This document shows positions 1-38,609 of a DNA stretch of 64,000 nucleotides, one piece after another. Where the stretch lies: positions 88,336,097-88,400,096 of the forward strand of contig CM037590.1 in the NCBI GenBank assembly GCA_021018995.1, in the 5' to 3' direction. The stretch's first letter is position 1. The number at the start of each line of letters is the position of its first letter. The position numbers and the translations under genes are program-made. This stretch comes from Chloranthus sessilifolius (taxonomy: Eukaryota > Streptophyta > Magnoliopsida > Chloranthales > Chloranthaceae). The notes under the pieces were generated by a model, which saw nothing but the letters and a program-made list of their open reading frames with translations, was not told the DNA's origin and searched no databases.

Positions 1-1432
1 CTTTCACCATTCACTCAGTTTGTGTCAAAAAAATTTTTTACAAGACAAATTAATGAAAAGCTTGCCTTCTATTTGAAAATTCAGTTTTTGATGTTACCCC
101 AATAAGTTGATTTCAAACCCAACTCTCCCTGGATTTTCACTCACCATGTAAGTAAGAGGGCTGTACTATTTCACATAGCTCAAGAGCAGTTACAGCCCTC
201 AAATAGGACTGTAAGCAGGAGCATAGGCATTGCTTTTTAGTTCTGAATTCACTACTCTTTTCACCATAGATTACATAAATCCTTATCTCCATGTGACAGC
301 TCAATCCATCTTTGATCAGTAGGGACTTTAACTTGGGTTGTAATGTGGCTTATGGGTGAAATTTATCAAGAATAAAGGGGTGGAATGGAGTTTTAAATTG
401 AGAAGTCAGTCAAGGTAAGGAGGTGGTATGGACATCTTCTTTATTTCAGCACAATTTCATCTTCTTCTTTGAATTTTCAGAGCCAAAGTGGCCATCTTTT
501 TCTCTTTCTTTTTCAAACTTCCAATGAAATGCCTTCTCCTTTTCTTTTCTTTTTTTTTTTTTTTTCAAAGCAACATTGACTGGAATGCCACATTTCTTAT
601 GCTGATACACCATTGCCTTCAATTATTTTTTTACCAAACTGTTACCCAACTTACCTTTCTTCAGCTTTCTTTCCTTTACCTTCTGAATTCTTAGAGTGAG
701 GGTTAGGCTAAATGAGGTTGATGAGGTTTCAAAGAAATCTTGGATTTATAAAGCTCAACTAGTGTGTATCAAGGGCAGTTTTAAAAGGTGGGGATTTTTG
801 AAGTTCAAACTGTCCAAAAGGAGGCCTTACATTATGTCTTTAATATCATGATTGCTGTCAAATTATTTCAATTTGGATATGTGTAACTTCTAGTGAGAGT
901 AAGCAGGTTCAAACAATCCCTAGAGCAGAAAAAATTGCCAATTCATACCTCCAAAGAATACATTTCAGGCCCAAATCTCACTGGGTGTGGTTTTCTATCA
1001 AAATCCTGAGGTATATCATCACTGTTTTCTCTCTTTTTAGGTTTACTAAACATCAATCTTCTTTTAGAAATTTTCTGACATTCACTTCATGAAAGTATTA
1101 GAATTACACTAGGAATTTAATTTTAAAAAGTTTTAACTTCCTCATTTTTCAAAACAATAGGTGTGAAATTACTTCATCTTCAAAAATTTTGCTGATCATA
1201 AGCTGCACTGATGTTAACTAAACTATTGGCAATTCTGCCACACTCCCAAACCTATGATGAGCAGTGTCCTCACTGGTCCAGAAGTGCATAAGCAAAGAAA
1301 AGAAAAAAAACAAAAATCATATTGACAGAGAAGAAAGAAAAGAAATGCACAGTAATTAAAAATTAACAAAAGTTAACAGAAAACAGGAATTACATGCTAC
1401 AGACCCAACAAAACAAACATGTACAATGTATT
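1..1432 (-). repeat. 3' tail of accessory gene, left arm (non-coding)
   Basis: No gene is seen here. This is the untranslated tail downstream of the left-arm accessory gene. It matches 6741-8136 (inverted), the D tail 23301-25158 (same strand) and in part the F tail 54120-55865. A conserved block near 1240-1276 reads on the minus strand as CAGTGAGGACACTG, then AGGTTTGGGAGTGTGG; the same block follows the coding end in D (about 24880-24925) and F (54110-54150). Its second half resembles the polypurine tract plus LTR start of D. Short open frames in the tail (for example 488-694) are T-rich and I do not regard them as genes. Confidence 0.75.
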
Positions 1433-3400: not shown

Positions 3401-3405
3401 CATCC

Positions 3406-3660
3406 AGGAAAGCTGAGATCTAGATGGGAAGGGCCATACACTGTCATTCAGGCAGCTCCTTCGGGAGCTGTTGACATCCTTGATCCAAGTAATGGAAGAA
3501 TCTTGAAAGTAAATGGTCAGAGGCTCAAACCATGCATTGAAAATACCCAGGAGCCTGTGCTGCCCATCTGTCATCACGAACCTCCAAAAATCTGATGGTA
3601 GATAACTGTACATTATATTTTTATTTCATAGTTTTTGCTTAGTTTCTTTGTTTCTATTTT
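3406..3660 (-). other. Unrelated head joined to the left arm
   Basis: Left-arm homology ends at about 3405 and is replaced by sequence with an open minus-strand frame 3613-3380 containing FVMTDGQHRLLGIFNAWFEP. I do not recognise it. In the frame of the accessory gene it reads as a short broken stretch running into ADVPTLVIF, so the left copy has a different N-terminal neighbour from the right copy. This could be a diverged 5' part of another family member or a recombination scar. Confidence 0.4.
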
Positions 3661-3679
3661 TATTCATGATTTGTCTCTT

Positions 3680-4003
3680 TTCGCATAGTTTAAATATGCT
3701 CCAAGTTAAGTCGTAAAGTAATAATTATCTTTTCGCAAAGTTCAATTTACTTTTCGAAAAGACTCTGGATTTGTAACGAACTGCTCGAAAGCAAGGATTT
3801 GCTTTTCGAATAGTTGGTTCTGAAGCTATTTTCTTTTTGAAAAGATATTTCTGAAGCTAGTTTCTTTTCGAAAAGATGTTTCTGAAGCTATTAACTTTTC
3901 GAATGGTATTGATGCCATTCGCAGTTGTCAAAAGGTCTATTTTGGAACTTTTCGAAAACTTAAAAAGGACTTTGCGAAATTAACTCTGCGTATATTTAAA
4001 CCC
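3680..4003 (+). promoter_or_regulatory. Promoter with helically spaced CTTTTCGAAAAG-type sites
   Basis: Upstream of the right-arm accessory gene lies a run of near-palindromic sites: CTTTTCGCAAAG at 3729, CTTTTCGAAAAG at 3750 and 3864, and variants at 3781, 3802, 3833, 3895, 3948 and 3970. Start-to-start intervals are 21, 31, 21, 31, 31, 31, 53 and 22 bp, close to 2, 3 or 5 helical turns. A TATA-like TATATTTAAA follows at 3991-4000. The site at 3729 is identical to one in the solo LTR at 57689. Part of the regularity comes from a 31-bp tandem unit carrying TCTGAAGCTA. Reading this as a promoter array is inference from position. Confidence 0.6.
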
Positions 4004-4308
4004 TTTCGAAGTAAGGGTTTCATATTCGAAAGCTTTCTGAAGAGCGACCTGTTCCATAGAAACCCTATTTCTTTCTTTCCTTGCGCGATTTGAGAATCTT
4101 ACTACACTTTTCTTCACCTTTCTTCGATCATTTGAGTTTTCAGAGAAGGATTTTAGCTTCTAGTCTGGGGGATTTCTGCAAGCAAACAACACGTTCAATA
4201 AAAAACCCTAGATCTCGGTATTTCTCTACACATTCTCTCTGTTTATCATTTGGAAAATTTGATTTTGTGTCAGCATCTGTTGTGGGCATTTTCATACATC
4301 AATTTAGA

Positions 4309-6740
4309 ATGGGAAAAGCAGAGAAATCGTTGGCTGCCATGTTCCCAAAATCCTCTACTAAGAAAGTTAGCAAACCTACCCCAAAAGGAAAAACCAAAAC
4401 TTCAGCCAAAAGAAAATTATCTATGGATAAAGCGGATAGGGTGGAGAAAGGGAAGAAAGTGAGACATGAGGAACCCATCCCTGCTACTGCTAGTCCTGAG
4501 CCTGAGCTTCCTCCTCTGCCTATACATTTGGTACTGCCAAATCCATTCATTGAAGCTCAGAAGCTAATTCCTGAGCTGATTGTGGACGAAACTTTTTTCG
4601 TCAACAAACCGGATTGCCTGTTATCTTTAAGATACATAAGAGATGCCTCACTAAGCAATATCCTTACCCCCTTTCCAGAAAAAATTTACCCACGAATAGT
4701 GAAGTTATGGTACCAAAACCTAGTCAAGGTCACTGAAAGAGATGCTGATGTCCCTACCCTGGTTATCTTTATTGATGATTGCGATCTTACTGTCACATTT
4801 GAAGACATAGGGAATGCTTTGGGGATACCCTTCCAATTTGATCCTTCTGGTCCATTGGCTGCTCCAGAAACAGCCTCCTTTAGAGAAATGGCTGCACATT
4901 TAACCCAAGGAATTGTGGGCACTGGACAGTCCATCATGAGGAGAGACCTAGCCCCCCAATTTCTATTGATGGATTCCATTTTGAGGGGAAGTTTTTATGT
5001 CACCGGGCACAGCCAAGAGAGGAGAACACAATTTCTGGAGGCTCTCTTTCATTTTTCTAAGGGGCAGTTTTTCAATGCCCCTATGTTAATTTTTGAAGCC
5101 ATGACTGATATTAGTGCCAAGTTGAAAAAGGAACAGAAATTAGCTGGCCTCCCATTTGGTAGATTGATCACAGCCCTCCTCAGAGCCAAGTTTGACATTG
5201 ATAACAAGGAGCCATTTGAAGTCATTGCTCCTCACAATTTTGGGAAAAAGGCTTGGACTACAAGCCAAGCCATGCTGAGATGAATGAGAGAGGAAGGTGA
5301 ACTTGCACCTACAGCTGTTAATGAACCTGCCCCTGCAGTTCCCTTAGAACCGGTTTTGCTGTAACTCTTGTGACCAGCTGAGTCGCACCACTTTCAAGCA
5401 CCCATTTTTGAAGAAACTATCCTTCCCATGGTGACCAGCTCTTCTGTTGCACCAATTCTTGAGGAAGTTGGCCTTTCACCCTCCTCCCCTAGTCCAGCCC
5501 CTGCCACTTCACCTATCCCAGCTGTCCCATCTCCCATACCCTCCATTATTCCAATTATAGATTCCCCCTCTACACCAACCACTCCAACCATACTCACACC
5601 ACCAATTTCTCCCACCAATGCCCATGTTTTGGCTGCAGACTTTATTGCCCATTCTCCTTGCACTCCTCTGCTCCAAAGCCCCACAAATTCACCTGCTCAG
5701 TCAGCCCACACACCTGAAGTATCCCATACACCTGAACCCGAGCCTTTCACTACAGAGGCTTATTCCTCCTTAATGGGCTCTATTTTTGAAACCGTGGGGT
5801 TTGAACCTATCCCTATACCTGACTCTCATCATTTCACTCACTTACCTACTTCTCCCTTTACAGCCATTACACCTCCACCCTCCACTTCAGTTGTACCAGT
5901 CCCTGCTATGCCCACCTCTCCCCCACCTGCATCTATTAACCAAATACTTGCCTACCTCCAATCCATCCAAGCCCAACTACAACTCAACACAGAAAACCAG
6001 TCTGTGACCAATGACCTTCTCCAAACCTTAGCCTCCACATCCCACACAACCACCATTACCCCTGTACCTACTGTTGATTCCCATGCTACCCAAACTAAAC
6101 CAGAGGTTATATTGGTTGATCTGCCCACCCCCACCACTACTGCCCATGCTACCCAAACTGAACCAGAGGTCCCTCTAGTTGCATCCCCTTCACCACTCCT
6201 CATTTTCTCTAAGCAAGCCACTCAGACCGACCCTGAAGTCCTCCTTCTGGACACTTCTTCTCTCCCTCCCACAGCTGGGACACCTTTGGTCCCCTACCAT
6301 TCCATTCCCCTTCCCAGATTTGCCACCCTCAGAAGAGCCATGGAAGAAAATCCTTATATCTGTAGAGATGTTCTAAAGGGGTTAGCTGATTTACAAGCCT
6401 ACATTCGAACCCCTTATGAAAACTAGATTCGGAAATTGGAGTTATTTATGAAATTTGAGAGAGAGAAAATGAAGGACTTGCTGGGTCAAACCTTTCAGAT
6501 GGTTCGGAGTGAGCAGCACAAGGTGACCATGTTGTAAGCACAGCTTGACCAGGAAAAACTGAAGACCACTAGACTTGGCAAGTACATTGGCCTCACCAAA
6601 AGATCAAATCGGAGGAATACAATGCAAAACACAATCCAGAGAAAGCTCAATCAAGTTGGACTAATACGATTCTAGTTCGATTTTGAGGACTCTAGTTCGA
6701 GCCAATTGAACCAACTTATGACATGATTTTGACCCCGATT
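4309..6740 (+). pseudogene. Accessory gene (putative plant transposon protein family), right copy
   Basis: The frame is open further upstream, but the first ATG in a sensible setting is at 4309, giving MGKAEKSLAAMFPKSS. Architecture: Lys/Arg-rich N-terminus (to about residue 50, nuclear-localisation-like), then an alpha-helical domain (about 4550-5280) with LVIFIDDCDLTVTFEDIGNA, SFREMAAHLTQG and RRDLAPQFLLMDSILRG, a long Pro/Ser/Thr linker (5428-6300) with TQTEPE-like repeats, a conserved PYHSIPLPRFATLRRAMEEN block, and a coiled-coil tail after 6421. Stops at 5281, about 5362 and 6424 plus later frameshifts break it. The left copy reads MLNRMREE across the 5281 stop, so that stop is secondary. 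The same gene occurs in D (25159-28069) and E (63616 on). Function unknown; likely a DNA- or nucleus-associated element protein (inference). Confidence 0.75.
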
Positions 6741-8136
6741 ATTAAAGCACTTTGTACTTATCTGGTATAAGTTTGTAATATAAATTCTGGTTTTTCTTGT
6801 GAAATTAATGTGCATTTACATCGTCCTCTTGTCATCATGATTTTTTCTTGCTTATATCTCTTCTGCTTTGGACCGTGTGGACCTGCTCCCCTATGGTTTG
6901 GGGTGTGTGAAATGTCAATAATCAATAATTGTGTTAACATTTGTACAAACTTATGATCAAGGAATTTTTGAAAATAAAGTAATTTCACACCTTGCTTTGA
7001 AAAACAGAAAAATATGAAGAAGTTAAAACCTTTTGAAATTAATTTCTAGTGTAATTCTAATACTTTCATGAAGTGAATGTCGAAATTTCCAAAGAAAATT
7101 GATGTTTTAGTAAACCTAAAAAGGAAAACAATGAGGATACACCTCAGAATTTGATAAAAAACCACACCCAAAGGAGGTTTGGGCTGAAATGTATTCTTTG
7201 GAGGTATGAATTGGCAATTTTTTTTTCTTTTACTTGCACTAGAAGTTACACATATCCAAATTGAAATAATTTGATAGCACTCGTGATATTAAAGACATGA
7301 TGTAAGGCCTCCTCTTGGACAGTTTGAACCTTACAAAGCCCCACCTGTTGAAATTGCCCTTGATACACACCATTTGAGCTGTACAAATCTAAGATTCCTT
7401 TGAAACCTCATCTAATAACCTCATCAACTTCATTTACCCTAACCCTCACTCCGAGAATCAGAAGATAAAGGGAAGGAAGCTGAAGAAAGGAGAATTGAGT
7501 AACAATTTGATAACAAAAGAAGGGTACAAGTTGAAGGCAATGATGTAACAGTAGAGGAAATGTGGCATTCCAGTCAATGCTAATTTGAAAAAAAAAAATA
7601 TTTGAGCAAAACAAAAAGAGAGAAGGCATTTCATTGGAAGTTTGAAAAAGAAAGAGAAAAAGATGGCCACTTTGGCTCTGGAAATTCAAAGAAGAAAATG
7701 AAAATATGCTGAAGTAAAGAAGGTTTGTATATCACCTCCTTACCTTGACTGACTTGTCAAATTTGAACACCATTCCACCCCTTTATTCTTGAGAAATTTC
7801 ACCCATAAGCCACATTACAACCCCAGTAAAGTCCTTACTGATCAATGATGGATTGAGCTATCACATGGAGATAAGAATTTGTGTAATCTATGGTGAAAAG
7901 AGCAATGAATTTCGAACTAAAAGCAATGCCTATGCTCATGCTTATAGTCTTATTTGAGGGCTGTAACTGCTCTTGAGCCGTGTGAAATAGTACAACCCTC
8001 TTCCTTGCATATGAGTGAAAATCCTGGTGAGAGTTGGGTTTGAAATCAACTCATTGGGGTAACATCGAAGCTGGATTCCTAAATAGAAGGCAAGCTGCTT
8101 ATTAATTTTTCTTGTAAATAACCTTTGACATAAATT
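6741..8136 (+). repeat. 3' tail of accessory gene, right arm (non-coding)
   Basis: This is the reverse-complement partner of 1-1432 and holds no gene I can support. It carries the polypurine-like block GGTTTGGGGTGTGTGAAA near 6895-6912. The sequence runs to about 8136, where it breaks directly into the integrase frame of element C without an LTR. The element that donated this arm therefore lost its 3' LTR, either by deletion or by recombination with C. Confidence 0.7.
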
Positions 8137-8139
8137 GAC

Positions 8140-8982
8140 ACCATCGGCAAAATCAATCCTAAAGCTTCTAACGGACACCAATTCATCCTCGTCACTGTGG
8201 AATACTTCACAAAATGGGTAGAGGCAGCCTCCTATACAAGCATTAAGGCTGGTCATGTTGAGAAGTTCATCAAGAACAACATTATTTGCAGATTCGGTGT
8301 ACCCAAAGATATCATCACTGATGATGGCACTAATTTCGCCAATAGGCGCATCCGGGGCTTCTGTGAGCGGTTCAAGATCAAGCATCATCGTTCATCCCCG
8401 TATAGGCCTCAGACGAACGGAGCTGTGGAAGCAGCCAACAAAACTCTGATCCGCATCCTAGAGAAGATGGTAGTCACTTACAGAGATTGGAGTGAGCAAT
8501 TATCCTTCGCACTTTGGGCCTATAGAACGTCTATCCGTACCACAACAGGGGCAACACCATTCTCCCTTGTGCATGGAACCGAGGCCGTGCTACCCGTTGA
8601 GGTCGAGGTACCGTCGCTCTATATCCTCTTGGAATCCCATCTACCTGAAGCTGAGATGGAAAGAGCCCGTTTTGAGCAGCTAGACTTGATTGACGGGAAG
8701 AGACTCCTAGCCTTGTGCCACACTCAGGTCTATTAGAGGAGAATTGCACGTGCTTACAATAAACGCATCCGCAGTCGAGACCTGAAGGTAGGAGACAATG
8801 TACTGAAGAAAATTTTTCCGTCTCTCCACGCCGATCCGAGAGGGAAGTTTAAGCCAAATTGGGAAGGACCCTACGTTGTCCGAGAGGTCCTGCCGGGATA
8901 CGCCGTTCACCTCGCCACCATGGACAGAGACCACTTTCCTGAGCCCATCAACGCTGGATACCTCCGTAAGTTCTACTCATAG
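8140..8982 (+). pseudogene. Ty3/gypsy integrase, C-terminal two thirds (element C)
   Basis: The frame starts inside the integrase (TIGKINPKASNGHQFILVTV) and covers the catalytic core: EYFTKWVEAASY, the second catalytic Asp in IITDDGTNF, and the Glu in NGAVEAANKTL. It ends with the C-terminal GKFKPNWEGPYVVREVLPGY region and stops at 8980-8982. One in-frame TAG at about 8734 breaks it. The first catalytic Asp and the zinc finger are lost at the 8136 junction. It is closely similar to the integrase of element B (48283-49440), so C and B are related Tat/Ogre-like elements. When intact the enzyme would insert element cDNA into nuclear DNA. Confidence 0.93.
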
Positions 8983-9607
8983 GTCTTGGGACAAGGTAAG
9001 TTTTGATAAAAGTAGATGCGTGACCGCTTAAGGGCCCCATAAAAGAGGCCATCATTTCAAAGTCAAGTAGCCCAAAAGAAATATTCCCTGAAAACCTTCC
9101 CCCTTTTTGCTACACACTTCGGGCCAATAACCATTTCTTTCATATACCCCACCCAAAATTCTAAGAAAAAAGAGAAAAGAGAAAAGAGGAAAAATCCAAA
9201 TCCAAATAAAAAAGAAGAAAAAAGCAAAACCCCTCAAAAAAAAAAAAAAAAAAGAGGAGGGGGACCAAGAAAAAAGAAATGACGGGGGCATAAAAGGCCT
9301 TTGGAAAGAAAGAGGAGTCCCTGAATCTAGAATTCACTCAAAACTTAGATCCGAATCCCCAGAAAACCCAACCCGTTTAAACCCCGACCATATTACAACC
9401 CAGAAGAAAGCCCTCTTTAAGGTCCCCAAGCGGTCATAACATCTACTGCATCCGAACAAGCCGAGTTAACAAACCACACAAAACTTCATTCAGCCGGCTA
9501 TGACAGAATCGACGTCCATGTCGTGGCCTTCTGGTTCTAAAAAAAAAAAGAAGAGAAAAAGAAAAAGAAAAAAGAAAAATTATTAATTTGGGTTCAAAGC
9601 AAGACGG
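8983..9607 (+). other. Post-integrase spacer of element C
   Basis: Non-coding. It is homologous to 49441-50035 of element B; both share the block CCATCATTTCAAAG soon after the integrase stop. It contains A-rich stretches (9160-9255, 9535-9580). I see no gene. Confidence 0.7.
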
Positions 9608-9800
9608 ACGTGGTGAAAACCCGCAAGGGCACCACGGGTAAAAACAGCGAACTCACGCGGACTAGGTGAAAACCCGAAAGGGCACCTGGGGTAAGAAAGC
9701 GAACCCATGGACGCAGTGAAAACCCGAAAGGGCGCTACGAGTAAAAGCAGGGATGACAGGCATGGCGAAAACCCGTCTTGGGCGCTATGAGCAAAAATGT
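9608..9800 (+). repeat. Tandem repeat, units of about 50 bp (GTGAAAACCCGAAAGGGC core)
   Basis: Four degenerate units start near 9611, 9667, 9717 and 9765. Each has a core GTGAAAACCCGAAAGGGC followed by a GGGTAA-like segment. The inner CCC/GGG part is self-complementary. The same repeat sits at the same place in element B (50036-50220), so it predates the split of the two copies. Confidence 0.8.
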
Positions 9801-10083
9801 CAAGAAAAGAGAGATTAGGAGAAGACCTGTTCTGGTCCGCCCATTTCAATTTGATCCCCTTGAGCCCCTTTTCCCCCCTTTTCGATGGGCCAAGTGAAAA
9901 TTAGATCAGATCCCGATCAAGTATGACATCTCTACCGCAGCGTCTGACGCATGACCAAAGGGAAAGACAGAAGACTAGACCAATCCCTGAGAAGCTAACC
10001 TTCCCGCGTTTAAAGAAAAAAAAAGCCTGTATCTCATGAACAGGGTTCGACCATGCTCAAAAAGTCCCACTGGTTTGGCCCTG
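9801..10083 (+). other. Spacer of element C, no gene
   Basis: Continuation of the region between integrase and the opposite-strand genes. It is alignable in part with 50221-50560 of element B. I see nothing coding. Confidence 0.6.
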
Positions 10084-10437
10084 TAATTACCAACATCACA
10101 AAAGACCCAAAAGGAGAAAATTTTCAAAAAAGATAATAGACTTTCCTTTCCCATAAAAAACCCCACACTGTGGAGGAGAAAAATTTCGAAAAAGATAATA
10201 GATTTGCCTTTCCCATAAAAAACCCCACACTATGGAGGAGAAAATTTTTAAAAAAGATAATAGATTTCCCTTTCCCATAAAAAACCCCACATTGTGGAGG
10301 AGAAAAATTTTAAAAAAGATAATAGATTTCCCTTTCCCCTAAAAAACCCACACTGTGGAGGAGAAAAATTTCAAAAAAGATAATAGATTTCCCTTTCCCA
10401 TAAAAATCCCCACATTTGTGGAGGAGAAAATCTCCAT
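10084..10437 (+). repeat. Tandem array of about 60-bp units with CCACACTGTGG palindromes
   Basis: About six units of roughly 60 bp contain AAAAGATAATAGATTTCCC, TTTCCCATAAAAAACCCC and a CACACTGTGGAGGAGAAAA segment. The unit includes an 11-bp palindrome CCACACTGTGG (variants CATTGTGG, CACTATGG). Element B has only about one to two related units (50640-50850), so the array expanded in C after divergence. The GGAGGAGAAAA part is purine-rich and resembles a polypurine tract. Tandem repeats in this part of Tat elements are known. Confidence 0.85.
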
Positions 10438-10732
10438 AAAAAGCCTTACGTTGCGAAAGGTACGAAGAAAGAAAAAAGAGTAAAAAAATGAAAAATATAT
10501 GTATGTATAGGTTTCATTCCATTTCTTACAGTACTGCGTGCGGAGTGTCACGTCCCAATAAGATAACGACATGACACACTTCCTATTTTTGCTGCTTTCT
10601 TTACAGATGAAAAAATATATATCTGTATATATATAACAACAAAAAAAGAAGAAAAATAACCCAAAAAGAGATCTCTGTTATGGGGCATTCCTCCCCTCCC
10701 TGTATATGATCTATGATATGTGCAGGAACAGG
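10438..10732 (+). other. Spacer between tandem array and opposite-strand gene
   Basis: This A-rich stretch holds the 3' flank of the minus-strand gene. It includes a short TATA microsatellite near 10615-10640. No gene seen. It matches about 50851-51052 of element B. Confidence 0.6.
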
Positions 10733-12244
10733 TCAAGGGCAGGGAGCACGCTTCAAAGCGCTAATCTCTGCAAGCAGAGAGTCCTCGCGAGCATTTCGAT
10801 CAGACATCCACCTACCATGAAGACTCTTCTGCCATCTCCGTGAAGCTTCAGCTGCGCTGTGAGACTCAGTCAAAAGCCCAGTCAACCGAAGAACCTCACT
10901 CTCGGCTGTGGCAGCTCTCACTTCTGCAATCTCCGCTCTGCCCCTTTCTTTCCCCAAAGCCTCGGTCAAAGCCAGCCTCTCTACAGAAAGAGACTCGATC
11001 CTGGTCCGAAGCATCGCTTCCTTGCATGGGCAAGGCCCCGTCTCTATCACATCTACCGAAATTGGGCTAGGAGCAGGTAATTCCTCGGATACCAGCCAAA
11101 CCTCGTAATCAGGAGAGACGACGCCCCCTTGAACCAAGATGCACATATGCGCTGATTGGCGGGTCTCCCAGAGGGAGGCTATGCGGTCGAGATCACTAAG
11201 AGAACCCCGAGAAAATATCAGAGAGCACAAAGGTGGCCTCACAGAGCATGGCACGTGTTGAGTATACCCAAACTGACGAAGCACCCGAGATGGGAAGTAG
11301 TATGTGCTACCAGTCAACCCCAAAAGTGTTATACCCTCACAATCCCTAGAGCGGACAATCGGAAAGGTGTCGTCCATCCAGGGAAGTTGCCAGGTCAGCT
11401 CCGCATCAGATAGCCACAGGCTCAATTCCTCGACGCTCCCACAAGGCAGTTTCGAACTCCGAATCAGAAAGCCCCGAGCCGCATCCCCTCTTATGAAGCA
11501 GAATCTCGGCATGGGCCCCATGATAGCCAAATGCTCCCCTAACAAGATCTGAACAAGCAGCGGGCTCCGTGAGAATCTAACCGGCCGAGGTCGGATCAAG
11601 CCTCGATACATCTCCGCCAGGACCAAGTGTACCAATGAGCGACCTCCCTCCAATTCGGTCAAGACATCACATAGTCCAAGGGAAAAGCTCTCACCCCCAG
11701 TGAAGAAGAGAACTTCCGACAGTAAATAAAGGGCAAAGGCCTTTACATTGAAGGGATCTCGAATAGGTAACTTTCGAAGGCTCGAGACACCGAAAAGTTC
11801 TCTTAGGAATTTCACCGAACACCTGGTGGGTCCTCCGGTGAAACATTTCTCGTATCCACCCTTTTTTAAGCCGAGGACCGCGTGGACCGCCTTTGCATAC
11901 CCCGGTTTGGGCACTACTTTGGCAAGGCCTCGATGCATCTTCAGGCCCGTGATGGAGGCTAGCTCTTCCAAAGTTGTGGTTAGCTCCCTAGACCCAAATT
12001 TAAAGACATGGGTCCTATGGTCCCACGACGCCAAAGCCGCCCGTAGTAGGTTGGGCAACAGAGGAACAGCAAGGAGAGAGGAAAGGCAGGACAACCCGAG
12101 GCAATTTAGAATAGCAAGCTCGCTCTCAGCCAAACTATCATGCCATTTTGCAAAAAGCTGGGCCCCGGGTCCAAACAGGGAAGTATACCGGCCCCCGTAT
12201 GAGAACTTAGGCCCATTTTCAAAGGCAGTTCCATGGACGTACAA
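10733..12244 (-). CDS. Opposite-strand accessory protein of Tat/Ogre-like element, 503 codons open
   Basis: This is the longest uninterrupted frame in the window, on the strand opposite to the pol of its element. The N-terminal half is helical and Leu-rich and contains WDHRTHVFKFG and TTTLEELASITGL, a pattern I associate with the DUF7745 / plant-mobile-domain-like proteins of plant retrotransposons (family name from memory). From about residue 400 it becomes a Glu/Arg/Ala-rich coiled coil (SVERLALTEALGKERG, AEIAEVRAATAESEVLRL). No in-frame ATG lies near the 5' end: the frame opens after a TGA, and an ATGG in good context at about 12235 is in another frame. The start may therefore come from an upstream exon or be lost. 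A remnant of the same gene ends element B (51053-51110). Upstream lie a TATA-like TTTATAAT (12378-12385, minus) and the palindrome array 12411-12572. Molecular function unknown. Confidence 0.75.
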   Translation of the reverse strand: MYVHGTAFENGPKFSYGGRYTSLFGPGAQLFAKWHDSLAESELAILNCLGLSCLSSLLAVPLLPNLLRAALASWDHRTHVFKFGSRELTTTLEELASITGLKMHRGLAKVVPKPGYAKAVHAVLGLKKGGYEKCFTGGPTRCSVKFLRELFGVSSLRKLPIRDPFNVKAFALYLLSEVLFFTGGESFSLGLCDVLTELEGGRSLVHLVLAEMYRGLIRPRPVRFSRSPLLVQILLGEHLAIMGPMPRFCFIRGDAARGFLIRSSKLPCGSVEELSLWLSDAELTWQLPWMDDTFPIVRSRDCEGITLLGLTGSTYYFPSRVLRQFGYTQHVPCSVRPPLCSLIFSRGSLSDLDRIASLWETRQSAHMCILVQGGVVSPDYEVWLVSEELPAPSPISVDVIETGPCPCKEAMLRTRIESLSVERLALTEALGKERGRAEIAEVRAATAESEVLRLTGLLTESHSAAEASRRWQKSLHGRWMSDRNAREDSLLAEISALKRAPCP

Positions 12245-12410
12245 TGATGTTCTTGGTAAAATCAGTCAATGTATGGCAATGGACCCACCAAAAAAAGAGA
12301 GGAAAGGAAAAGAAAAAAAGAAGGGCAAATGGGCCAAACTAAGATAGAGGAAGAGGCAAGGGGGGACCAGGCTCGGATTATAAAGAGCCCGCTCGGCCCA
12401 AAATATAGCA

Positions 12411-12572
12411 GGCGTATATATTATATATGCCAAGGAAAATTTTGAACTATTTTGCCCGGCGTATATAATATATACACCCGACCATTTTTTCTATGGATTG
12501 GCCAGGTGTATATAATATATACGCCCGACTTTTGTGGTCGGACATTTGCCTGGCGTATATAATATATACGCC
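12411..12572 (-). promoter_or_regulatory. Four palindromes at exact 47-bp spacing upstream of the 503-codon gene
   Basis: Four copies lie at 12411-12431, 12458-12478, 12505-12525 and 12552-12572. The perfect copy has arms GGCGTATATA and TATATACGCC around one central A. Centres are 12421, 12468, 12515 and 12562, exactly 47 bp apart. Spacers have constant length (26 bp) but quite different sequence. The array lies upstream of the minus-strand gene and its TATA-like box. The same motif occurs at 16804-16873 and in the LTR at 19311-19528. Binding of a dimeric factor is inference. Confidence 0.85.
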
Positions 12573-12978
12573 TTGATTTAAGGAACTGACAAGTCCCCCC
12601 CTCACATTGGCCCATTTTTGTTCCCAAGGGGGAACATGTTTCTGCTTGACCCACTTCTTCATCTCAGGGCAGCCCACAGGCGCACATAATCGCATACCCA
12701 TGGGAAGCCCCCGGATGACGCACTGCCCGTAGGTTGTATACAGAGAACCACCTGCATGGTCCACTCCATCATTGGAGGGATGGCAACTCATTTCAAACCA
12801 AGGAAGAAGAAACCATAAAGGCAAAAGCGAAGAAATACCCAAATAAATCATTCATATAAACCATAAAAATTATAAACCATCCAAAAAAAAGAAAAGAAGC
12901 AAAAATTGTTATTATTACATATCCCCCAATAAAGCCAAGTCTAAACTGTTTCATTATGTCAAATTTGTAGAAAATAAA

Positions 12979-15397
12979 CTAGGCCTGGGCAGCCCCCTTC
13001 GACTTCTTTCGGCGCCGGCTCGCACTTTGAAAGGTACGAGTCTCCCCCACCCGAGTCCACGCCTGAGAAATACGGCTGAGAAGAGAACGCGACTCCTTTT
13101 CACGAGCTCGCTGTAGGAACACACCAAAAGCCATCAGGTAGAGAAACAGGCAGAAAGTAAATAAGGAAGATAACTAGGTTGGGCCAGTATTCACTCACCA
13201 CTTCGGTCTCCCTAAGCCCAACAAGGTTACGGTAATATTCAACTTGACTCACTGCCGACTCATAATCTTGGCCAATAAGGAAAAGGAGGTGTTAGTCACA
13301 CAGGCCATCAGCATAATTCAAAAGGAAAAAAGAATAGAGCAACAAGATAGAAATTACCCCAAGAATCAGCTCGGGAGGTTGGACCTGGATAGCTTCAGCA
13401 GAGATTCATGCCTTCTCGACCACGTCGGCACACACGCATGACAAAAAGGCATCATCCAAGCGTTTGAAGGTCCCTTGGACCACGATAGGCGAACTGCCAG
13501 AAGCACCAGCACCAGAGGGGTCGAGGTCCGACTGAGGCCACACCAAGCACCGGAAGGATCGGAGGATCCGGACTGCGATCATATGGAGCAGCCGCCTCAT
13601 CCCCCTCATCTGAGTCGCCGCCCTGCTCAAACTGTAGAGAGAAACATTTTATCATTAAAGGTGGTAGGTCAATCAAAGTAACCACAAGGGAGCTGCTAAA
13701 TAAAAAGAGAAAAGGGGCATTACCTGAGATCGCGGCCCACCAAAAGCTAAAAAGTTAGCACCAGGCACGAAGCGGGGCAGCAAGAAATGGTAGGGCAGGG
13801 AATCGTACCATGACTTATACCCCCCGAGCAGGAGAAGGTCATCGATAGGAACCCCATGGTGAAGAAATTGAGTAGTAAGCTCATCAATGGAACCTTCCGG
13901 AGCCAACACATCGGCAGGAGGAGCTTGGGGCACAGCAAAGAGAGGGCGATACTGATGAACCACTCTCTCCCCTAAATAGTAGGCCCTAGTCCAAGACCCA
14001 TAGAGGAAGATGATGCGACGGTCCAGCAAAAGGCGAGAAGGACCCACTGAGGCCAAGTTTCAGAAGGGAGATCCTATGTAAGGGTCGAGAATGACCTACA
14101 AAAGAAGAGAAAACAGAGAGGGGATACACACATTCGGTCAGAACCCACGACACAGAAGAGCAAGAGCTGTCAATTATAAAAAGGGAATTGTTTTACTTGC
14201 TCTGGGATCAACAAGTCAAACTGAGAGCGCAGCCCTAACTCTAAATGCTTCATACCTACGTCTCGACGGCGACCCACATGCCAGTTACTCATGAGGGGGA
14301 ACGTGACAACTTCAGACTGAAGCAGGGGGCGACCCGGTTGAAAGTGAAGATACCCCCAGATTTGAGAAAGCAAGCAGATAAAGACAGGTATGCTATAAAA
14401 GAAAATTGGACAAACTAAAACCAAAGGATAAAATACCTCAATTGCAGGCCAGAAACCTACAATGGAGCTAGACTCCCCAAGAACGACTAGCTTTAGGTTG
14501 GACATGAGTACAGCATAGCCAGCGCCGCCCCAATCGAATCGATGTACGGTCTCCCAGTTCACCATCAAGCTGAGCAGGGACAACGAGACTTGCCCTCCAC
14601 TGGTGTTGGAGAGGAGAGTCTTGCCCAGGAGGAACAACAAGGAGATGCGGGCCAACATAAGTGCACGCGTCAACTCGATATAAATATCCATGTCAGGCTG
14701 ACCCTGGTCCACTAACTCATGAGGCCCAAACTGATCAACCAGCCAGGATAGCTTGACCTCAGAACCCCGAGCATTCCCTGAGGACGGGTAAGCCCCTATC
14801 AGTTGAATCACCTCCTCCATACCCGGTGTGCGGGTAGGTACTACAGGCACCCCTCCAATACGGACCCCAGTGATCATGGACCAGTCTGCTAGTGTGAAGG
14901 CCATCTCCGCCACGGCCATGTGAAAGGTCATGGTCTCGGGGCGAAAACGCTCTATCAGTGCCTTTAAATAGGCCGTATTGGCCCTCACAGTGGGGCACAA
15001 AATGAAATCCCCGAAACCGGCACCGGTGAGCAGGTCCTTCACCACTGGGGGAAGGTAAAGCACAAGACGCTGGAGGTCGAATCAACCGCCTCGGAACATA
15101 ATGTGCGGCAGGGGCTGCAAACAGAAGGCATCAATCAGATAGGGGCAAGGTGATATAATGAAGACATCAAAGGAAAACAAAAGCGGAAAAGAGGGGGGGC
15201 CATCTGTTTACTTGACCGACGATCCCAAAGTTGGACATGTGGGTGTGCTAGCAGTAGAGGAGGCCGGTATGGGCAGCCTCGCCTTGCATTTCATACCAAG
15301 GCTGGGAGGAGCGCTGAGACACAGTGAACTGTTATCCACGGGGGCCATAAGCCATCTCCGGCCCTTCTTGCTGATCATGCCCTTTGTCACCAGACAT
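12979..15397 (-). pseudogene. Plant mobile domain (PMD) gene of element C, spliced, opposite strand, decayed
   Basis: Exons read on the minus strand: 15397-15212 (start MSGDKGHDQQEGPEMAYG, donor CAA|gtaaac); 15114-14197 (acceptor tttgcag; PMD core with VVKDLLTGAGFGDF and TFHMAVAEMAFTLADWSMI; donor CAA|gtaaaa); 14095-13724 (acceptor tttgtag; PSRLLLDRRIIFLYGSW; donor CAG|gtaatg); 13631 to about 13358 (acceptor ctctacag; acidic FEQGGDSDEGDEAAAPYD); a short exon near 13276-13199; and 13110-12979 (acceptor cctacag; basic end SRRRKKSKGAAQA). Damage: stops in the first exon, a TGA near 15090, another at about 14060 (GSPF*NLASVGP), and a frameshift near 13540. PMD proteins are plant-specific, occur in transposons and in silencing-related MAIN/MAIL host proteins, and have no proven enzyme activity. 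The basic tail suggests nuclear import. The promoter side carries the element's palindrome motif (16804-16873). Confidence 0.75.
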
Positions 15398-15429
15398 CCT
15401 GAAAATATGAGACGCATCGGCATATGAGA

Positions 15430-16320
15430 GGGGTGCCAACAAAAAAAGAGAGCAAAAAAATATACATATGCACTAATCCAAAGAAAAAAGCAAGAAATCT
15501 AAAAAAAAAGCAACAAAAAAAAACCCATGTGTGTGTGTACTAATCCAAAAAAAAAGAGATGTGTGTGTGTGTACTAAAAACAAAAAAAAAGCCATGTGTG
15601 TATATACTAATCCAAAAAAAAGAGATGTGTGTGTATATACTAATCCAAAAAAAAAGAGATGTGTGTGTATGTACGTATGTACTAATCCAAAAAAAAAGAG
15701 ATGTCTGTGTGTGTACTAAAAACAAAAAAAAAAACCATGTGTGTATGTGTACTAATCCGAAAAGAGAGGTGTGTGCGTGTACTAATCCAAAAAAAAGAGG
15801 TGTGTGTATGTACTAATCCAAAAAAAAGAGATGTGTGTGTGTGTGTACTAAAAACAAAAAAAAACATGTGTGTATGTGTACTAATCTGAAAAGAGAGAGG
15901 TGTGTGTGTACTAATCCAAAAAAAAGAGAGATGTGTGTGCGAGTATATTAATCCGAAAAAAGAGATGTGTGTGTATATACTAATCCAAAAAAAAGAAAGA
16001 AAGATGTGTTTGTGGGTACTAATCCAAAAAAAGAGATGTGTGTGTGTGTACTAATCCAAACAAAGAAGAGATGTGTGTACTAATCCAAAAAAAATGTGTG
16101 TATGTGTGTGTGTACTAATCCAAAAAAAAATGTGTATGCGTACTAATCCAAAAAAAATGCGTGTGTGCACTAACCCATTAACAAAAAAATGTGTACGTAA
16201 CAAGCCAAAATGTGTGTGTGTGTGTATAAATGTACTAACCCATTAACAAGCAAAAAAAATAAAAATGTGTGTGTATGTGTATGCTAATCCACCAACCAAA
16301 AAAAACAAACAAAAACATAC
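15430..16320. repeat. Tandem repeat ACTAATCCAAAAAAAGAG + (TG)n
   Basis: About 30 degenerate units of 20-45 bp combine ACTAATCC, an A-run, GAGA and a short (TG)n stretch. The units show expansion and contraction of both the A-run and the TG-run. It lies between the first coding exon of the PMD gene (15397) and its likely leader (about 16583-16740), so it would be intronic for that gene. Reading frames through it are repeat artefacts. Confidence 0.85.
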
Positions 16321-16559
16321 ATAAATACGTATGCGCTAACCCAAAAAAAAAGGGGGGAGAGGCACCAATCCATCAAATAAAATGCACTAATCCAAAAAAA
16401 AGAAAAGAAAGAAAACAACCCCACAAAAACAAAATAAATAACTAATGAATGGGAAATAGGCCTAAGGAATCAAATATTTCAAACAAAAAAAAAGAAAAAA
16501 AACAACAAAACAACAACTAAAACAAAAGGAGACAAAAAGCATTTCAATCCAAAAAGAAA

Positions 16560-16745
16560 AATGAAGGAAGGGTAATGGTTACCTTCAATGGAAGAGAAAA
16601 ACGAAGATCGACGGAGAACGAGCACCTTTGATCCACAACCGCGACCCCCAGCAATAGAACTCAAGCCAAATCAAATGAAAAAACCCTAAGGGGTTGTCCC
16701 GGACTCAAGAGGAAAGGAGGGAGGAAGATAGAATTTGAAAAGGGG
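16560..16745 (-). other. Possible untranslated first exon of the PMD gene
   Basis: On the minus strand a CT-rich stretch (about 16740-16680, ending near the plant-leader-like TTAGGGTTTTTTCATTTG) is followed by CTTCCATTGAAG|gtaacc at about 16583, a good splice donor. With the acceptor tattttcag just before the ATG at 15397 this would give an intron of about 1.2 kb containing the tandem repeat. No protein is claimed. Confidence 0.4.
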
Positions 16746-16803
16746 GGCCCCTTTTGTGCTCAGGCTCGGGCTCGGGCAGTTCCGTAACTGCCAGATTTTA
16801 GAC

Positions 16804-16873
16804 GGGCGTATATAATATATACGCCCGACCATTTTTTGCCAGATTTTGGTCATGCATATATATTATATACGCC
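16804..16873 (-). promoter_or_regulatory. Two palindromes, 48-bp spacing, upstream of PMD gene
   Basis: One perfect copy lies at 16804-16826 (arms GGGCGTATATA and TATATACGCCC, central A) and one diverged copy at 16853-16873. Their centres are 48 bp apart. The spacer starts CGACCATTTTTTGCC, close to the spacers at 12479 and 19334. The position is just upstream of the likely PMD leader. Same motif as in the LTR of this element. Confidence 0.8.
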
Positions 16874-16879
16874 CGACCA

Positions 16880-18925
16880 AAAATGGCAATTTTTAAACTG
16901 CCCGGCCTCCTTTTTCATTTTTGAGGCCCGACGGACCCCTTGCATGTTGGACCACGGCCCGGACCCCCCTCAGAAGCCCATATATCGTCAGACGAAGGTG
17001 CACACATCTCCAAATGGCCCTTCGAGTTCACTTCGATCGGCCCAAAGGGACCGTGCTACAATAAACGGATCTAGATCTGTAGGCGCCCACCTAATGCGCC
17101 CATAAAATCAAAAAAAAGGAAGAAGAAGAAAAAATAAAAAGAAGGAAAATATATAACACTAGTTCTCAAAGGAGCATTGCGATGACCATTTGTGCCACTC
17201 CGAGAATCGTGTTAAATCAATTAGGAATGATCGGGTCCGCCCGAAAGTTCTCAAACCCCGTTTCTGGCAGGGACACTTTGTACCTGACCCGGCAGGCAGA
17301 TAATTTTGCCCATCTCCGGTCATTGTTCCCCACAGAGTCCCCCAGGAGTCGAGACCTGATCCGGCATGCAAATAAACTCATCCACCACCGGTCACGCTTA
17401 GGAACATGCACCTTGCTCCAAATCTCCCCCAGTAAGAACCGAGGCCTGATCATGCAGGCAAACCAAGAACCCGTCACCAGAATGCACACGTCCCTGAGGT
17501 ATATCAACATGGCAAGTTGATTTGCCTAAGGATACATGCAAAAATAAAGGCAATTTGAGCATTCCTAGAGTCTCAACCTGACATGAAAAAAGAAAAAAAA
17601 GAAAAAAAAGGAGAAAAAAAGGGGGAGAAGAAATAACAACCTGTTGCTGCTTAGTAAAAATCCTGAGTAGGTTGACCCCACCTTCCAAGCATTCACTCTG
17701 GTCATCCCCCTTCGAATCTATGTTGACCAAGAGTGCCCCTGACTTCAGACCATTCGAAAAGTCTATTGTCAGTTGAAACTCACCAGTCAAAAATGAAATT
17801 ACAACCAACCAAACTATGTGCAAACATACAGACCAAAGGGCTCTTTTCCCTTTTATTTCCTTTTACATAGGCTTAAAACCTATATAGGCACGGTGTCCCT
17901 GTTGAATGTACGCACTTGCGTCTGAATATCCGCAAGATGGTCGTTTGTCCTCGTAAATTGTACCTTAGGGTTGAGGCTTCCGTTCGCGCCTATTTTTCTG
18001 CTTATCGCCCCTGATGGGTGTTTGTCTGTGCATAGTTAGTAAGATATGATTTCATTAGGGATGGAGGTTAGAATTGGCCATCTCTTTCAATGGATAATCG
18101 ATCCTAGCCCGATCTTTACCTTTGTCTTAAGTTAAGGCACTCTGGTTCATGTGAATCAGGAGCACCTCACCACTGGTACGTACACATCCCCGAGGCGTAC
18201 CTATCCTCGCCCACGCACTCTTAAAGCGTATCAACTGACATTTGATCCACTTAAAGAATTGTGCAAAAATAAAGTTGTCAGAGGTCCTTGAGCTTTGCTT
18301 AGAGGCCTCGGAACAAAAAAAAAATTGGAAAAAGGAAACACAAAAAATTTTTACTCAAAAAATGGGCATGCATTCCCGAGAGGTGTTGAGATATCAATAT
18401 TCGCTTCACTCGGGTAAAGCGTGCTAAAATAACCTTGAGGTTGATGGGTTTGCCCAAAGACTTCGAGCCTTACCTAGGTAAGGGCACCCGTGCCCAATCC
18501 AATGGAGCTGTCAATACCCCATAGGATTGAACACATTGATTAGGCCTTCGCTTTGTGTGCTTCACATGAATTCCGAAGTATAGATCGATCATCCCATTTC
18601 GTGGAGCTGTCTAGTTCAGATTAATACTCAACATCAAAAATCTATAATTTCCCCCAGGAAGTGGACGATATCCCGGCTAGCAGGCTTACACTTTTTGTGA
18701 TCATCGCAGTTATGCCCAGTAATGTCGCAATGTGCTTGGGGACTGTTAGCTTTGAGGTACGGACGATATCCCAAAATGAGAGGGCTTACATACACTCACC
18801 ATCACCATGAATGTTTGAGAATTGAGGTGAACTAGGCAAACCCATAAAATGTGCCTTGGACCTCTTCGGAAGTCTCTTGTCTTTGGCATCCGATCATTAG
18901 TGATCGAATACCAATGAGGGGCATC
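16880..18925 (+). other. 3' untranslated region of element C up to its LTR
   Basis: No gene supported. 17270-17490 holds about three degenerate units of 70-90 bp beginning with forms of ACCTGATCCGGCAGGCA. An A/G-rich tract lies at 17105-17150 and another at 17583-17635. The last bases, ATGAGGGGCATC (18914-18925), touch the LTR and fit the polypurine tract of a Tat-type element. Confidence 0.6.
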
Positions 18926-19004
18926 TGTAGACACCCAAATTCTGCCCAAGGCCCGATCAATCTGTACTTCGAGAGAGATGTACCCCTGTGCTTCTGATGG
19001 CACC

Positions 19005-19130
19005 CCTGAACCCTTAGGAATCTACCCTGAACCCTTAAGAATCTACCCAAACCCTTTAGAACCATTCCCCCAACCCTTAGAGATCACCCCTAAACCCTAG
19101 AATCCCTTCCCAGACCTAACTTAAACCCTT
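19005..19130 (+). repeat. Short tandem repeat at LTR start
   Basis: About six degenerate units of roughly 20 bp with the theme GAACCCTTAGAATCTACCC. The LTR of element A has the corresponding degenerate run at 40880-41010 on the other strand. It forms the outer U3 of this LTR family. Confidence 0.6.
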
Positions 19131-19310
19131 CTGGCAGTTGATGGGAGGAGAGCTACAAAACTTCACACAGCCACTACCAAGGGTGAGCCACATATCTTTG
19201 GAAAGAGGGATTCTCCAGCTTTCCAACAAGCCAAAGATCACTCAATTTGGAGCTACGGTTCAAAAGTTATGGCAGTTCAAAGTCTCACATAAAATCATAG
19301 GACTTTTACT

Positions 19311-19528
19311 TAGGCGTGGATATTACATACGCCCAGCCATTTTTGCCCCATATTAGTCAGGCGTATATATTATATACTCCTGCCTATTTTGGGGGGAAAT
19401 TTGGCCGGGCGTATATAATATATACGCCCAGTATAGGTGGGACCCACCACGGGCTTCATCTTCTCAAAACTCCCCTGATTTTGGTGAAATTTACTGTTCC
19501 TAAACTGGGCGTATATAATATATACGCC
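19311..19528 (+). promoter_or_regulatory. Palindrome array in the U3 of LTR C
   Basis: Copies at 19313-19333 (diverged), 19360-19380, 19407-19429 (perfect; 11-bp arms, central A) and 19508-19528 (perfect 10-bp arms). Centre spacings are 47, 48 and 100 bp (about two periods). The array ends 281 bp before the TATA box. Motif and period match those at 12411 and 16804, so all three promoter regions of element C carry it. Confidence 0.85.
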
Positions 19529-19808
19529 TAGCTTAGCTACAGTAACTGTCATCGGTTGCTCAAATTTCCTTCATCTAGTTTGACCCTTTGACCATCCCCT
19601 TAGTTAAGGTGGGTGTCTTGAGGTTGGTTGCACCCCCTTTGAGCTTATTGGCAACCCTTAAGTCACCCATGGTCTCACCCCATTATCCGCCATTAAAATC
19701 AGTTTCCCAAAACCCTAGAACCTTGAAAACCTAGAAAACCTTAGTTGGGGGATTACCTAATTGCTAAACCAATTAGCTCTTAAATTAGCCCCTAACCCTC
19801 CCCTTCTC

Positions 19809-19816
19809 TATAAATA
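19809..19816 (+). promoter_or_regulatory. TATA box of LTR C
   Basis: TATAAATA followed by AGAGAGGCCCCCC and a GAGA-rich leader fits a plant LTR promoter. The homologous box in LTR A is at 40174-40181 on the minus strand. Confidence 0.75.
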
Positions 19817-20530
19817 GAGAGGCCCCCCTCTTCCCAAGGGGTTGAAGTTTTGGTTGGAAAATTTGGTTGATTAGAGAGCTTAAGAGAGAGAAAGTCCTAG
19901 TGAGAGAAAATGTCACTTATTTTCCAGAATTTCAGTAAGCTTAGATCACCTATTCCACTCCACTTCAACCATGAGATCACTTTCTTTTAGCTAGAATATA
20001 TTCCCTAGCTTCACTCTATACTCCCTATCTATCAAATCTTTGCGTTAGAGTCCATTTCAATACCATTTGGACCATCGGAAGCATGATAAAGCAACGGTCT
20101 TTTACGGTGCAACAAGGGCCCGTGAGCTCCAGCTCACCCCTCTCTTCCTCTACCTTCTTGGTGTCTCCTCCGTCCAAGGATTCAAGCCGTTACGCCGCCG
20201 AAATTTCGGTTTGGCTCAAAGCTTGATAGGACCGTATTGCCTTCGGGCAAGGTGAAACGCCGCCCTTTTATTTTCCTTTTTGTCCATAGATAGAGACCGC
20301 TACGTGGGGGTTGATCCGGTGCCTGAACCCTTTCCTATCGATAATCGAAGCCCCTACCCTAGAGCCTTTGGCAAAGACCGGTAAATCAGACTCATATTTA
20401 GCACTTCGGTGCTCAAAATATTGATTTGAAGGTTTCTCGGGTCACCAAAAGCTCCGGGTGGCAACTCTACATTTTCATTAAAAAGCGAACGCATCGCCAC
20501 GACGGGTTCGAGAGGATCCATGGTCGCACA

Positions 20531-21087
20531 TACCTACTAAGGGCTTATCTCACTTTTTATAAGTTGTTTTTTTTGGGGAAACATGTGCCAAATTGTAGGC
20601 CACTCCCTACTTCCAGAGTTTGGGGCAAAGATGCCAAATTGCATACCTGACTTGCTGCCCCTTTACCTTTTTGGATGTAGGAGGCTGGCGAATGTGGCTC
20701 TTCTGAACTGGCCTCCATCATATTGACCATAGGTTCGTTTGAGGTTTCATCCTCAAACGCCAACAGAGTCTTGTGGTGGTTTACCACTGGAGGAGTTTGT
20801 TCAGGTATGGAATGCTACTCCTCAAATAGGGACAGGGCAGCCAGATCTATTTTGAGGTTGGGAAGGGAGATGTGGGGATTGGTGGTATGGACAAGGGTGA
20901 TGGGTTCTTGTGGGGTCAAATGGGCTACCCCATTCCTATCGATCTTTAAGTCCCCAGCGCTGACAAAGGATTCCCTGATGTGTGCCATAGGACAGGTTTC
21001 TCTTCTATGTTGATTCCTCGAGCTCTTGCAGCTATAGCGACCTGGCTTTCTCTTCGGCCTCTCGACCCTGGCTTTCTCTTCGGCCTT
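20531..21087 (-). pseudogene. Element A, end of gag-pro frame and start of pro-RT intron
   Basis: Minus-strand sequence homologous to 45400-45890 of element B. 20787-20640 reads VVNHH...LLAFED...NEPMVNMMEASSEE and IQKGKGAASQ, followed by CAG|gtatgcaa, a good splice donor matching the one in B at 45780. The sequence ends at 20531 against the LTR of C, so C sits in the intron of A. 21038-21086 carries two nearly identical 25-26-bp units with GGCTTTCTCTTCGGCCT at the junction with LTR D. Confidence 0.75.
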
Positions 21088-38433: not shown

Positions 38434-38609
38434 CTTGGTGCAACTAATACATGTGCCAAGTCAGACAAGCCTCCTTTTTACACTGGCGCAACTATTAGTT
38501 GCACCAAGGTAAAAGTTGGCAGATTTAAAGTAGGCACAACTAATACTATTAGTTGTGCCAAGGTAAAAGTTGGTGGATTTAAAGTTGGCGCAACTATTAG
38601 TTGCGCCAG
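38434..38609 (-). promoter_or_regulatory. Palindrome array of element A in the leader
   Basis: Four inverted repeats: 38434-38460, 38484-38506, 38533-38559 and 38586-38608. The last is perfect, arms TGGCGCAACTA and TAGTTGCGCCA with a central T. Centres 38447, 38495, 38546 and 38597 are 48, 51 and 51 bp apart. The first and third have longer loops. The same motif is in the LTR of A (40480-40684). It precedes gag by about 430 bp. Confidence 0.85.

Follow-up and report, generated by a model that had tools for sequence, protein, structure and literature searches.

Recoded palindrome arrays in the non-coding control regions of an Ogre/Tat-like retrotransposon suggest operators for a dimeric, family-specific factor

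Element C and its ten palindromes

The stretch of Chloranthus sessilifolius DNA analysed here (64 kb at its full length, in the following "the window") harbours at positions 8137-20528 the 3′ part of a Ty3/gypsy element, element C, with integrase, a long region between pol and the 3′ long terminal repeat (LTR), two antisense genes and a 1.6-kb LTR. Control and non-coding regions of this element hold ten copies of one odd 21-bp palindrome, GGCGTATATA(W)TATATACGCC, and a different motif in the same arrangement is present in the U3 region of a related element, B. One copy of each element entered the comparison.

The C-terminal integrase part of pol (8137-8982, plus strand; rve, 9e-10) places element C, the remainder of its pol not being found in the window. 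Its 3′ LTR (18926-20528, plus strand) runs from TGTAGACACC to GGTCGCA; the 3′ boundary was deduced from the TG...CA ends and from the alignment with element B. Integrase and LTR together exclude a VANDAL (MULE) DNA transposon. Both accessory genes lie on the minus strand between pol and the LTR. Antisense gene 1 (10733-12244) encodes 503 amino acids and matches the plant mobile domain (PMD) family (PF10536, 1.2e-13), while the PMD-coding part of antisense gene 2 (14170-15063; PF10536, 4.5e-27) is one stretch of a presumably multi-exon gene. A preliminary description of this DNA had assigned only one of them to this family; in fact, both match. A recent duplication as the origin of this gene pair was dismissed, because the best BLASTP E value between them is 4. 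Among 7998 candidates scored in a search with the gene 1 protein, none reached E <= 0.001, and a PDB sequence search returned no match at E <= 1. According to an excerpt of PMC6317226, 57% of Ogre elements have PMD in an extra open reading frame (ORF); element C has two antisense PMD genes. A second relative in the window, element D (gag ATG at 41132 on the plus strand, sequence ending near 51110), matches element C at 72% over C positions 8137-9825. Its domain order is RVT_1 with RT_RNaseH_2, RVT_3 and Integrase_H2C2, in which we read RVT_3 as an aRH between RT/RH and INT. Given the PMD genes and the domain order of element D, the evidence points to the Ogre branch of the Tat lineage, i.e. 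to an Ogre/Tat-like LTR element.

The palindromes of element C are grouped in three arrays. The first one (12411-12572), situated between antisense gene 1 and the 3′ end deduced for antisense gene 2, consists of four palindromes (12411-12431, 12458-12478, 12505-12525 and 12552-12572), whose centres at 12421, 12468, 12515 and 12562 are 47 bp apart throughout. On the upstream side of antisense gene 2, the second array (16805-16873) combines a perfect copy at 16805-16825 with another at 16853-16873, the centres (16815 and 16863) being 48 bp apart. The third array (19313-19528) is located in the U3 region of the 3′ LTR. It comprises a degenerate copy (19313-19333), two sites at 19360-19380 and 19408-19428, the latter perfect, and a more distant one at 19508-19528; with centres at 19323, 19370, 19418 and 19518, the spacings are 47, 48 and 100 bp. 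All ten sites lie outside the long ORFs of the two antisense genes. The mismatch search, the shuffles and the centre coordinates thus bear out the places and spacings given in the preliminary description, and the U3 array indeed precedes the LTR TATA box CTATAAATAG at 19808, its last site ending 280 bp before it.

Compared with a 23-mer that extends the palindrome, the ten sites have 0-4 mismatches, and no further C-type site with up to 6 mismatches to this 23-mer exists elsewhere in the window. At up to 3 mismatches the motif gives 15 strand-wise matches in the window against none in 100 dinucleotide shuffles. When odd palindromes of any sequence are counted (10-nt arms, at most one mismatch), the window contains 20, with up to 4 per 250 bp, whereas 40 simulated windows contained 2.8 on average, 7 at most, and never more than 2 per 250 bp. 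Six of the ten sites are in plus-strand orientation; such a mixture is allowed by the dyad. The C 21-mer had no match in a collection of genome contigs, and neither the C pattern nor the B pattern was matched in viral contigs.

The ten motifs share 92% identity (45 pairs), whereas the mean ungapped identity of six spacers is 51% (15 pairs, the long spacer 19418-19518 being left out). In line with the preliminary description, the spacers are by no means as conserved as the motif, but its view that they keep their length and not their sequence holds only in part: their mean pairwise score was reached by none of 500 shuffles, so that unrelated spacers had to be rejected. Spacers that are related but decayed, next to a motif that was kept, indicate that the arrays grew by duplication of a unit of some 47-48 bp, of which the motif has since been retained. 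The history of the arrays is therefore neither one without duplication nor a simple recent duplication. This bears on the possibility that the arrays are functionless tandem copies of a 47-48 bp unit, with the palindrome merely its best-preserved part. Duplication did take place, as the spacer relatedness indicates, and in related elements the region from pol to the 3′ LTR often contains tandem arrays (excerpt of PMC11963269). Yet the contrast between motif and spacers extends over ten sites in three places within 7 kb, and in the sites of element B described below the two arms have been altered in a symmetrical way, a pattern that neutral duplication fails to yield at matching old positions. 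We consider this explanation very unlikely.

Recoded palindromes in the related element B

The 5′ LTR of element B (39443-41094, minus strand; the 39443 end is approximate) can be aligned end to end with the LTR of element C, 944 of 1566 aligned columns (60%) being identical. It is followed downstream by a primer binding site-like sequence, ATGGCGACTCCGCTGGGAA, a leader and gag, with an ATG at 37956 on the minus strand and a Retrotrans_gag match at 35811-36080. Eight palindromic sites occur in this element. The U3 array (40481-40683) contains 40481-40501, 40579-40599, 40626-40646 and 40663-40683 (centres at 40673, 40636, 40589 and 40491 in the direction of the element) as well as an extra half-site at 40466-40475. 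The leader array (38437-38607), which precedes the gag ATG by 491-641 bp and lies 846-996 bp inward from the end of the LTR, contains 38437-38457, 38485-38505, a spaced variant at 38533-38559 and 38587-38607 (centres at 38447, 38495, 38546 and 38597). Two of the eight, those centred at 38447 and 40636, deviate from the B consensus at 4 positions. In the spaced variant, the half-sites are 7 nt apart instead of 1 (GGCACAACTA-ATACTAT-TAGTTGTGCC); it represents either a decayed site or a tolerance of about half a helical turn of extra spacing. For element D, no U3 or leader was identified in the window, and hence no third motif is available.

The B palindrome reads GGCGCAACTA(W)TAGTTGCGCC, i.e. 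its half-site is GGCGCAACTA where element C has GGCGTATATA. Common to both are 7 of the 10 half-site positions, the 21-bp length, the A/T centre and the central TA-W-TA. Positions 5, 7 and 8 are replaced in B on both arms, and thereby the dyad is retained. When all 20 half-sites of C are compared with 14 of B (the spaced site being omitted), position 5 is occupied by T in all 20 of the former and by C in all 14 of the latter; at position 7, T (19 of 20) is opposed to A (12 of 14), and at position 8, A (19 of 20) to C (12 of 14). Positions 9-10 are TA in every half-site of either element. The half-sites are specific to their family within the window: at up to one mismatch, the 18 C-type half-sites all fall into C and the 14 B-type half-sites all fall into B. 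The chance of sharing at least 7 of 10 half-site positions is about 0.0035 at equal base frequencies.

In the U3 alignment, sites 2-4 of C and B occupy identical columns, or columns 0-2 apart if the motifs are masked. An anchor independent of the array alignment is provided by a palindromic GTGGGNCCCAC box, of which each U3 has a single copy and the rest of the window none. In element C it lies between U3 sites 3 and 4 (GTGGGACCCAC, 19437-19447) and it is conserved in element B (GTGGGGCCCAC, 40558-40568). Measured from this box, the sites are found at -119, -72, -24 and +76 in C and at -110, -73, -26 and +72 in B; the TATA box follows at +366 in C and its counterpart, at 40182, at +381 in B. 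On these grounds we take the U3 sites of the two elements as matching, with site 1 being uncertain. The GTGGG/CCCAC box, a TCP-type and hence host-type site, is unchanged between C and B while the surrounding palindromes have been recoded. This is what one would expect if host sites stay and family sites move.

Could the palindromes themselves be bound by dimeric host transcription factors, with the two families using different or differently tuned ones? Host factor sites are common in LTR U3 regions, the presumed TCP box sits within both arrays, and the B half-site contains CAACTA/TAGTTG, presumably a MYB-like core. On the other hand, half-sites that share 7 of 10 positions, length and A/T centre at matching places argue for one protein lineage changing its specificity rather than for a switch between unrelated host factors. 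Moreover, sites are also found beyond the U3, around the antisense genes of C and in the leader of B. A host-factor origin of the arrays is thus unlikely, albeit worth keeping in mind.

The recoding is likewise informative with regard to a core-promoter or chromatin element, in which TATATAATATATA would serve as a symmetric TATA box, a nucleosome-excluding tract or a cruciform. The C motif does contain TATATAATATATA, and the second array has no downstream match to the TATA-like patterns tried. However, the B motif lacks the TATA run at the same places (GGCGCAACTATTAGTTGCGCC), so that AT-rich character is not the conserved feature, and in both elements the LTR has a separate TATA box downstream. 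We regard this explanation as highly improbable.

A similarly small chance is given to the palindromes acting as hairpins of the genomic or antisense RNA, where they would serve packaging, export or the production of small RNAs. In the usual LTR layout all arrays would be located in transcribed parts, with the exception of the U3 array of the 5′ LTR. Moreover, RNA pairing is also preserved by symmetric recoding, and a 146-nt stretch of array 1 folds with a z score of -5.85 against shuffles, although any palindrome would do so. But the symmetry runs through the centre, with TA-W-TA invariant, where an RNA loop needs no self-complementarity, and both centre orientations occur. The substitutions within the sites give no support either. 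CpG-type transitions account for 4 of 9 deviations in the 20 C half-sites and 7 of 13 in the 14 B half-sites, a share to be anticipated for methylated descendants of nearly perfect master copies. When these 11 changes are counted by hand, 5 would result in G-U pairing in the sense RNA and 4 would disrupt a pair, whereas the 2 at 40636 jointly restore an A-U pair; there is no clear bias. Finally, units of the same elements that do resemble RNA hairpins (9606-9795, see below) look different, with a bulge, a non-palindromic loop and a covarying stem. Because of the centre symmetry, the two orientations and the lack of a clear bias in the changes, RNA hairpins were rejected as the main function.

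The arrays had originally been placed at all promoters of element C. This is true for the U3 array, which is upstream of the TATA box. For array 1, said to lie upstream of the 503-codon gene, a TATA-like TTATAAT near 12383 between the array and antisense gene 1 is in agreement with the assignment. However, the ORF of this gene has no early ATG, nor is there an ATG between ORF and array, and therefore the gene may have a first exon joined by splicing, in which case array 1 could lie in an intron. No match to three TATA-like patterns was found downstream of array 2, and element B carries an array in its leader, which is incompatible with a strict promoter linkage. The placement is better described as "non-coding control regions". 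Tandem motif repeats have been reported in introns of VANC21 and VANB21 and also upstream of VANA21 (excerpt of PMC5735166). Phase is likewise loose: 47-48 bp corresponds to about 4.5 helical turns, and the B centres are spaced by 48, 51 and 51 bp in the leader and by 37, 47 and 98 bp in the U3. With spacings of 37-51 and 98 bp, strict helical phasing was rejected and any constraint must be loose.

A predicted dimeric reader

From these observations, we propose, as the most probable explanation, that the arrays are predicted operators for a dimeric, element-family-specific DNA-binding factor, which is probably encoded by the elements themselves. The dimer would read the 10-bp half-site GGCGNANNTA in two inverted copies around a single A/T base pair, and each family would have its own version, the C factor reading GGCGTATATA and the B factor GGCGCAACTA. 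Such a factor would bind the U3 as well as the non-coding regions around the accessory genes and in the leader. Binding would either activate the element's own transcription or, as in the case of VANC, keep the non-coding regions free of silencing, and other families would be left untouched. The dimeric factor already suggested in the preliminary description fits a dyad held at 92% against spacers at 51% and a sister element with a recoded palindrome, although this support is indirect. Encoding by the element is favoured by the reasoning that sites and reader must change together, which a host factor would not normally follow in each family; here, the sites change in step in the sister family while the host-type box remains constant. 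The proteins encoded antisense in element C are candidate binders of GGCGTATATAWTATATACGCC. The reader may derive from the antisense PMD-family genes, either from gene 1, whose C terminus may form a coiled coil, or from gene 2, with a weak DUF1985 similarity. A tail similar to the C terminus of gene 1 is also present in element D.

Several results weigh against this proposal. In the U3 comparison, site 1 fails to align between C and B and is 11-14 columns off. After removal of the 23-bp motifs, the site junctions of C and B are 7, 4, 2 and 5 columns apart. One of the four is within 2 columns, and in a rigid-shift test on these junctions 2029 of 20000 shifts were as good, which is not significant. 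Selection is deduced from arrays within a single C copy and from one sister copy. No accessory genes of element B were identified in the window. The AlphaFold2 model of gene 1 has a mean pLDDT of 39, and its two long C-terminal helices mostly score 45-68. In heptad scoring, the top-scoring window of gene 1 fell within the PMD region and not at the C-terminal end, and gene 2 had no convincing window. Accordingly, the case for a C-terminal coiled coil in gene 1 is weak.

A close parallel to an element-encoded reader is found in the VANDAL transposons of Arabidopsis. VANC21 and VANC6 are each linked to a short motif of their own, which is arrayed in tandem within the non-coding regions of the respective VANDAL family (excerpts of PMC5735166 and PMC10398659). 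Thus, as in C and B, several short-motif copies reside in non-coding regions and the motif differs between related families. In VANDALs, the element itself encodes the reader, and VANC proteins carry DUF1985 (excerpt of PMC5735166), to which antisense gene 2 is weakly similar (21.7 bits, E 2.1e-4, below the curated cut-off of 35.1 bits); DUF287 was not among the reported matches of this gene. In contrast to element C, VANDALs are DNA transposons, and their motifs measure 8-9 bp, with one orientation for VANC21, whereas the C site is a 21-bp dyad of mixed orientation with a pitch of about 48 bp (excerpts of PMC5735166 and PMC10398659). A VANC-type anti-silencing system is further defined by a protein that binds the motif and thereby causes loss of methylation. 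The B half-site TAGTTGYGCC (40481-40683) resembles the reported VANC6 motif (AGTTGTCC/AGTTGTAC) over AGTTGT, a stretch short enough for chance.

Other systems share single aspects. The hr regions of baculoviruses consist of repeated 28-30 bp imperfect palindromes that are interspersed in a genome and bound by the transactivator of the same genome, IE1 (excerpt of PMC2834656), which binds as a dimer according to a title in the reference list of that paper. Unlike element C, this is an insect DNA virus with an unrelated protein, and hr are enhancers that contain replication origins (same excerpt). In the Tat lineage, Grande (gene23), RIRE2 and Retand (TRP28) have antisense genes between pol and the 3′ LTR as in C. 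The Grande antisense product reportedly localises to the nucleus and has its own promoter, and TRP28 is predicted to bind DNA, a regulatory role having been proposed; the excerpts of PMC7264820 and PMC11963269 that report this name no binding site. In element C the antisense genes belong to the PMD family, and no match to PF04195 (Transposase_28), as a sign of Retand's TRP28, was obtained in 10733-12244, 14170-15063 or ten further ORFs (71 stop-to-stop ORFs of at least 60 amino acids overlap the region). MAIN and MAIL1 are likewise members of the PMD family, and a promoter motif, DOWN, is enriched among the genes downregulated in main and mail1 mutants (excerpts of PMC7156037 and PMC5418596). 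They differ from the C genes in being host genes, and direct DNA binding is not mentioned in the same excerpts.

PMD genes have been described in Gypsy retrotransposons of many flowering plants, with an ancestry common with host silencing factors, and the clades PMD-A1 and PMD-A2 are confined to Gypsy elements (excerpt of PMC5418596); the function of PMD is given as unknown (excerpt of PMC9289625). As a tentative and, on balance, doubtful generalisation, the PMD-A proteins of Ogre-like LTR retrotransposons could be dimeric, family-specific DNA readers that co-evolve with palindromic operators in the non-coding control regions of their own element. If so, a self-recognition system would have been invented apart from VANC or shared by descent, and the host silencing factors MAIN and MAIL1 would be related to DNA readers of transposable elements. 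With a defined family-specific target, the function of PMD would become directly testable. Element-encoded, sequence-specific self-regulation would reach beyond VANDAL DNA transposons and include large LTR retrotransposons, a major component of some plant genomes. The locus would offer a case of operator recoding at matching sites, with the adjoining conserved host-type box as an internal control. Among the matches listed from open-licence PMC papers we saw no description of such arrays, and the inner 15 letters of either motif, whichever centre variant is taken, are absent from open-licence PMC text. Mentions of palindromes in the excerpts of the matches examined concern LTR insertion into palindromes (a reference title), general statements, a 73-bp imperfect palindrome common to Silene satellites, and Y-chromosome palindromes.

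Hairpin-like units and further repeats

Just downstream of pol, both element C (9606-9795, plus strand) and element D (50016-50206, plus strand) have four tandem units of about 48-50 bp that resemble structured RNA. Each unit can be folded into an outer stem, an AAAA bulge, a CCC/GGG pairing and a GNRA-like or UCUU loop. Over the eight units, 94.4% of cells pair as compared with 79.5% in shuffles (none of 500 as high), and 14 cells have changed on both sides of the stem. Slid controls gave 31-51%, but the structure was drawn up from these same eight units of two elements and is thus favoured in this control; RNAalifold agrees with it. Part of the hairpin stretch is 82% identical between C and D, against the overall match of 72%. 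A repeated RNA element involved in packaging or export is possible. No Rfam family reached its gathering score in 8900-20600.

A search with the integrase of element C confirmed no relatives in viral contigs, where two stretches fit a pattern, and a search of plasmids with 8200-8900 yielded none. Upstream of the integrase, 1-8100 contains two inverted stretches of 74-91% similarity (arms within 146-3404 and 4741-8010) together with a Transposase_32-like ORF at 4081-5283 (below cut-off), apparently inserted in the pol of element C. A 62-bp tandem repeat with at least five overlapping copies (10112-10472) follows pol and precedes the 3′ end of antisense gene 1 on the map. The presumed 5′ intron of antisense gene 2 comprises a tandem (TG)n/ACTAATCCAAAAAAA repeat of about 0.85 kb (15460-16307).

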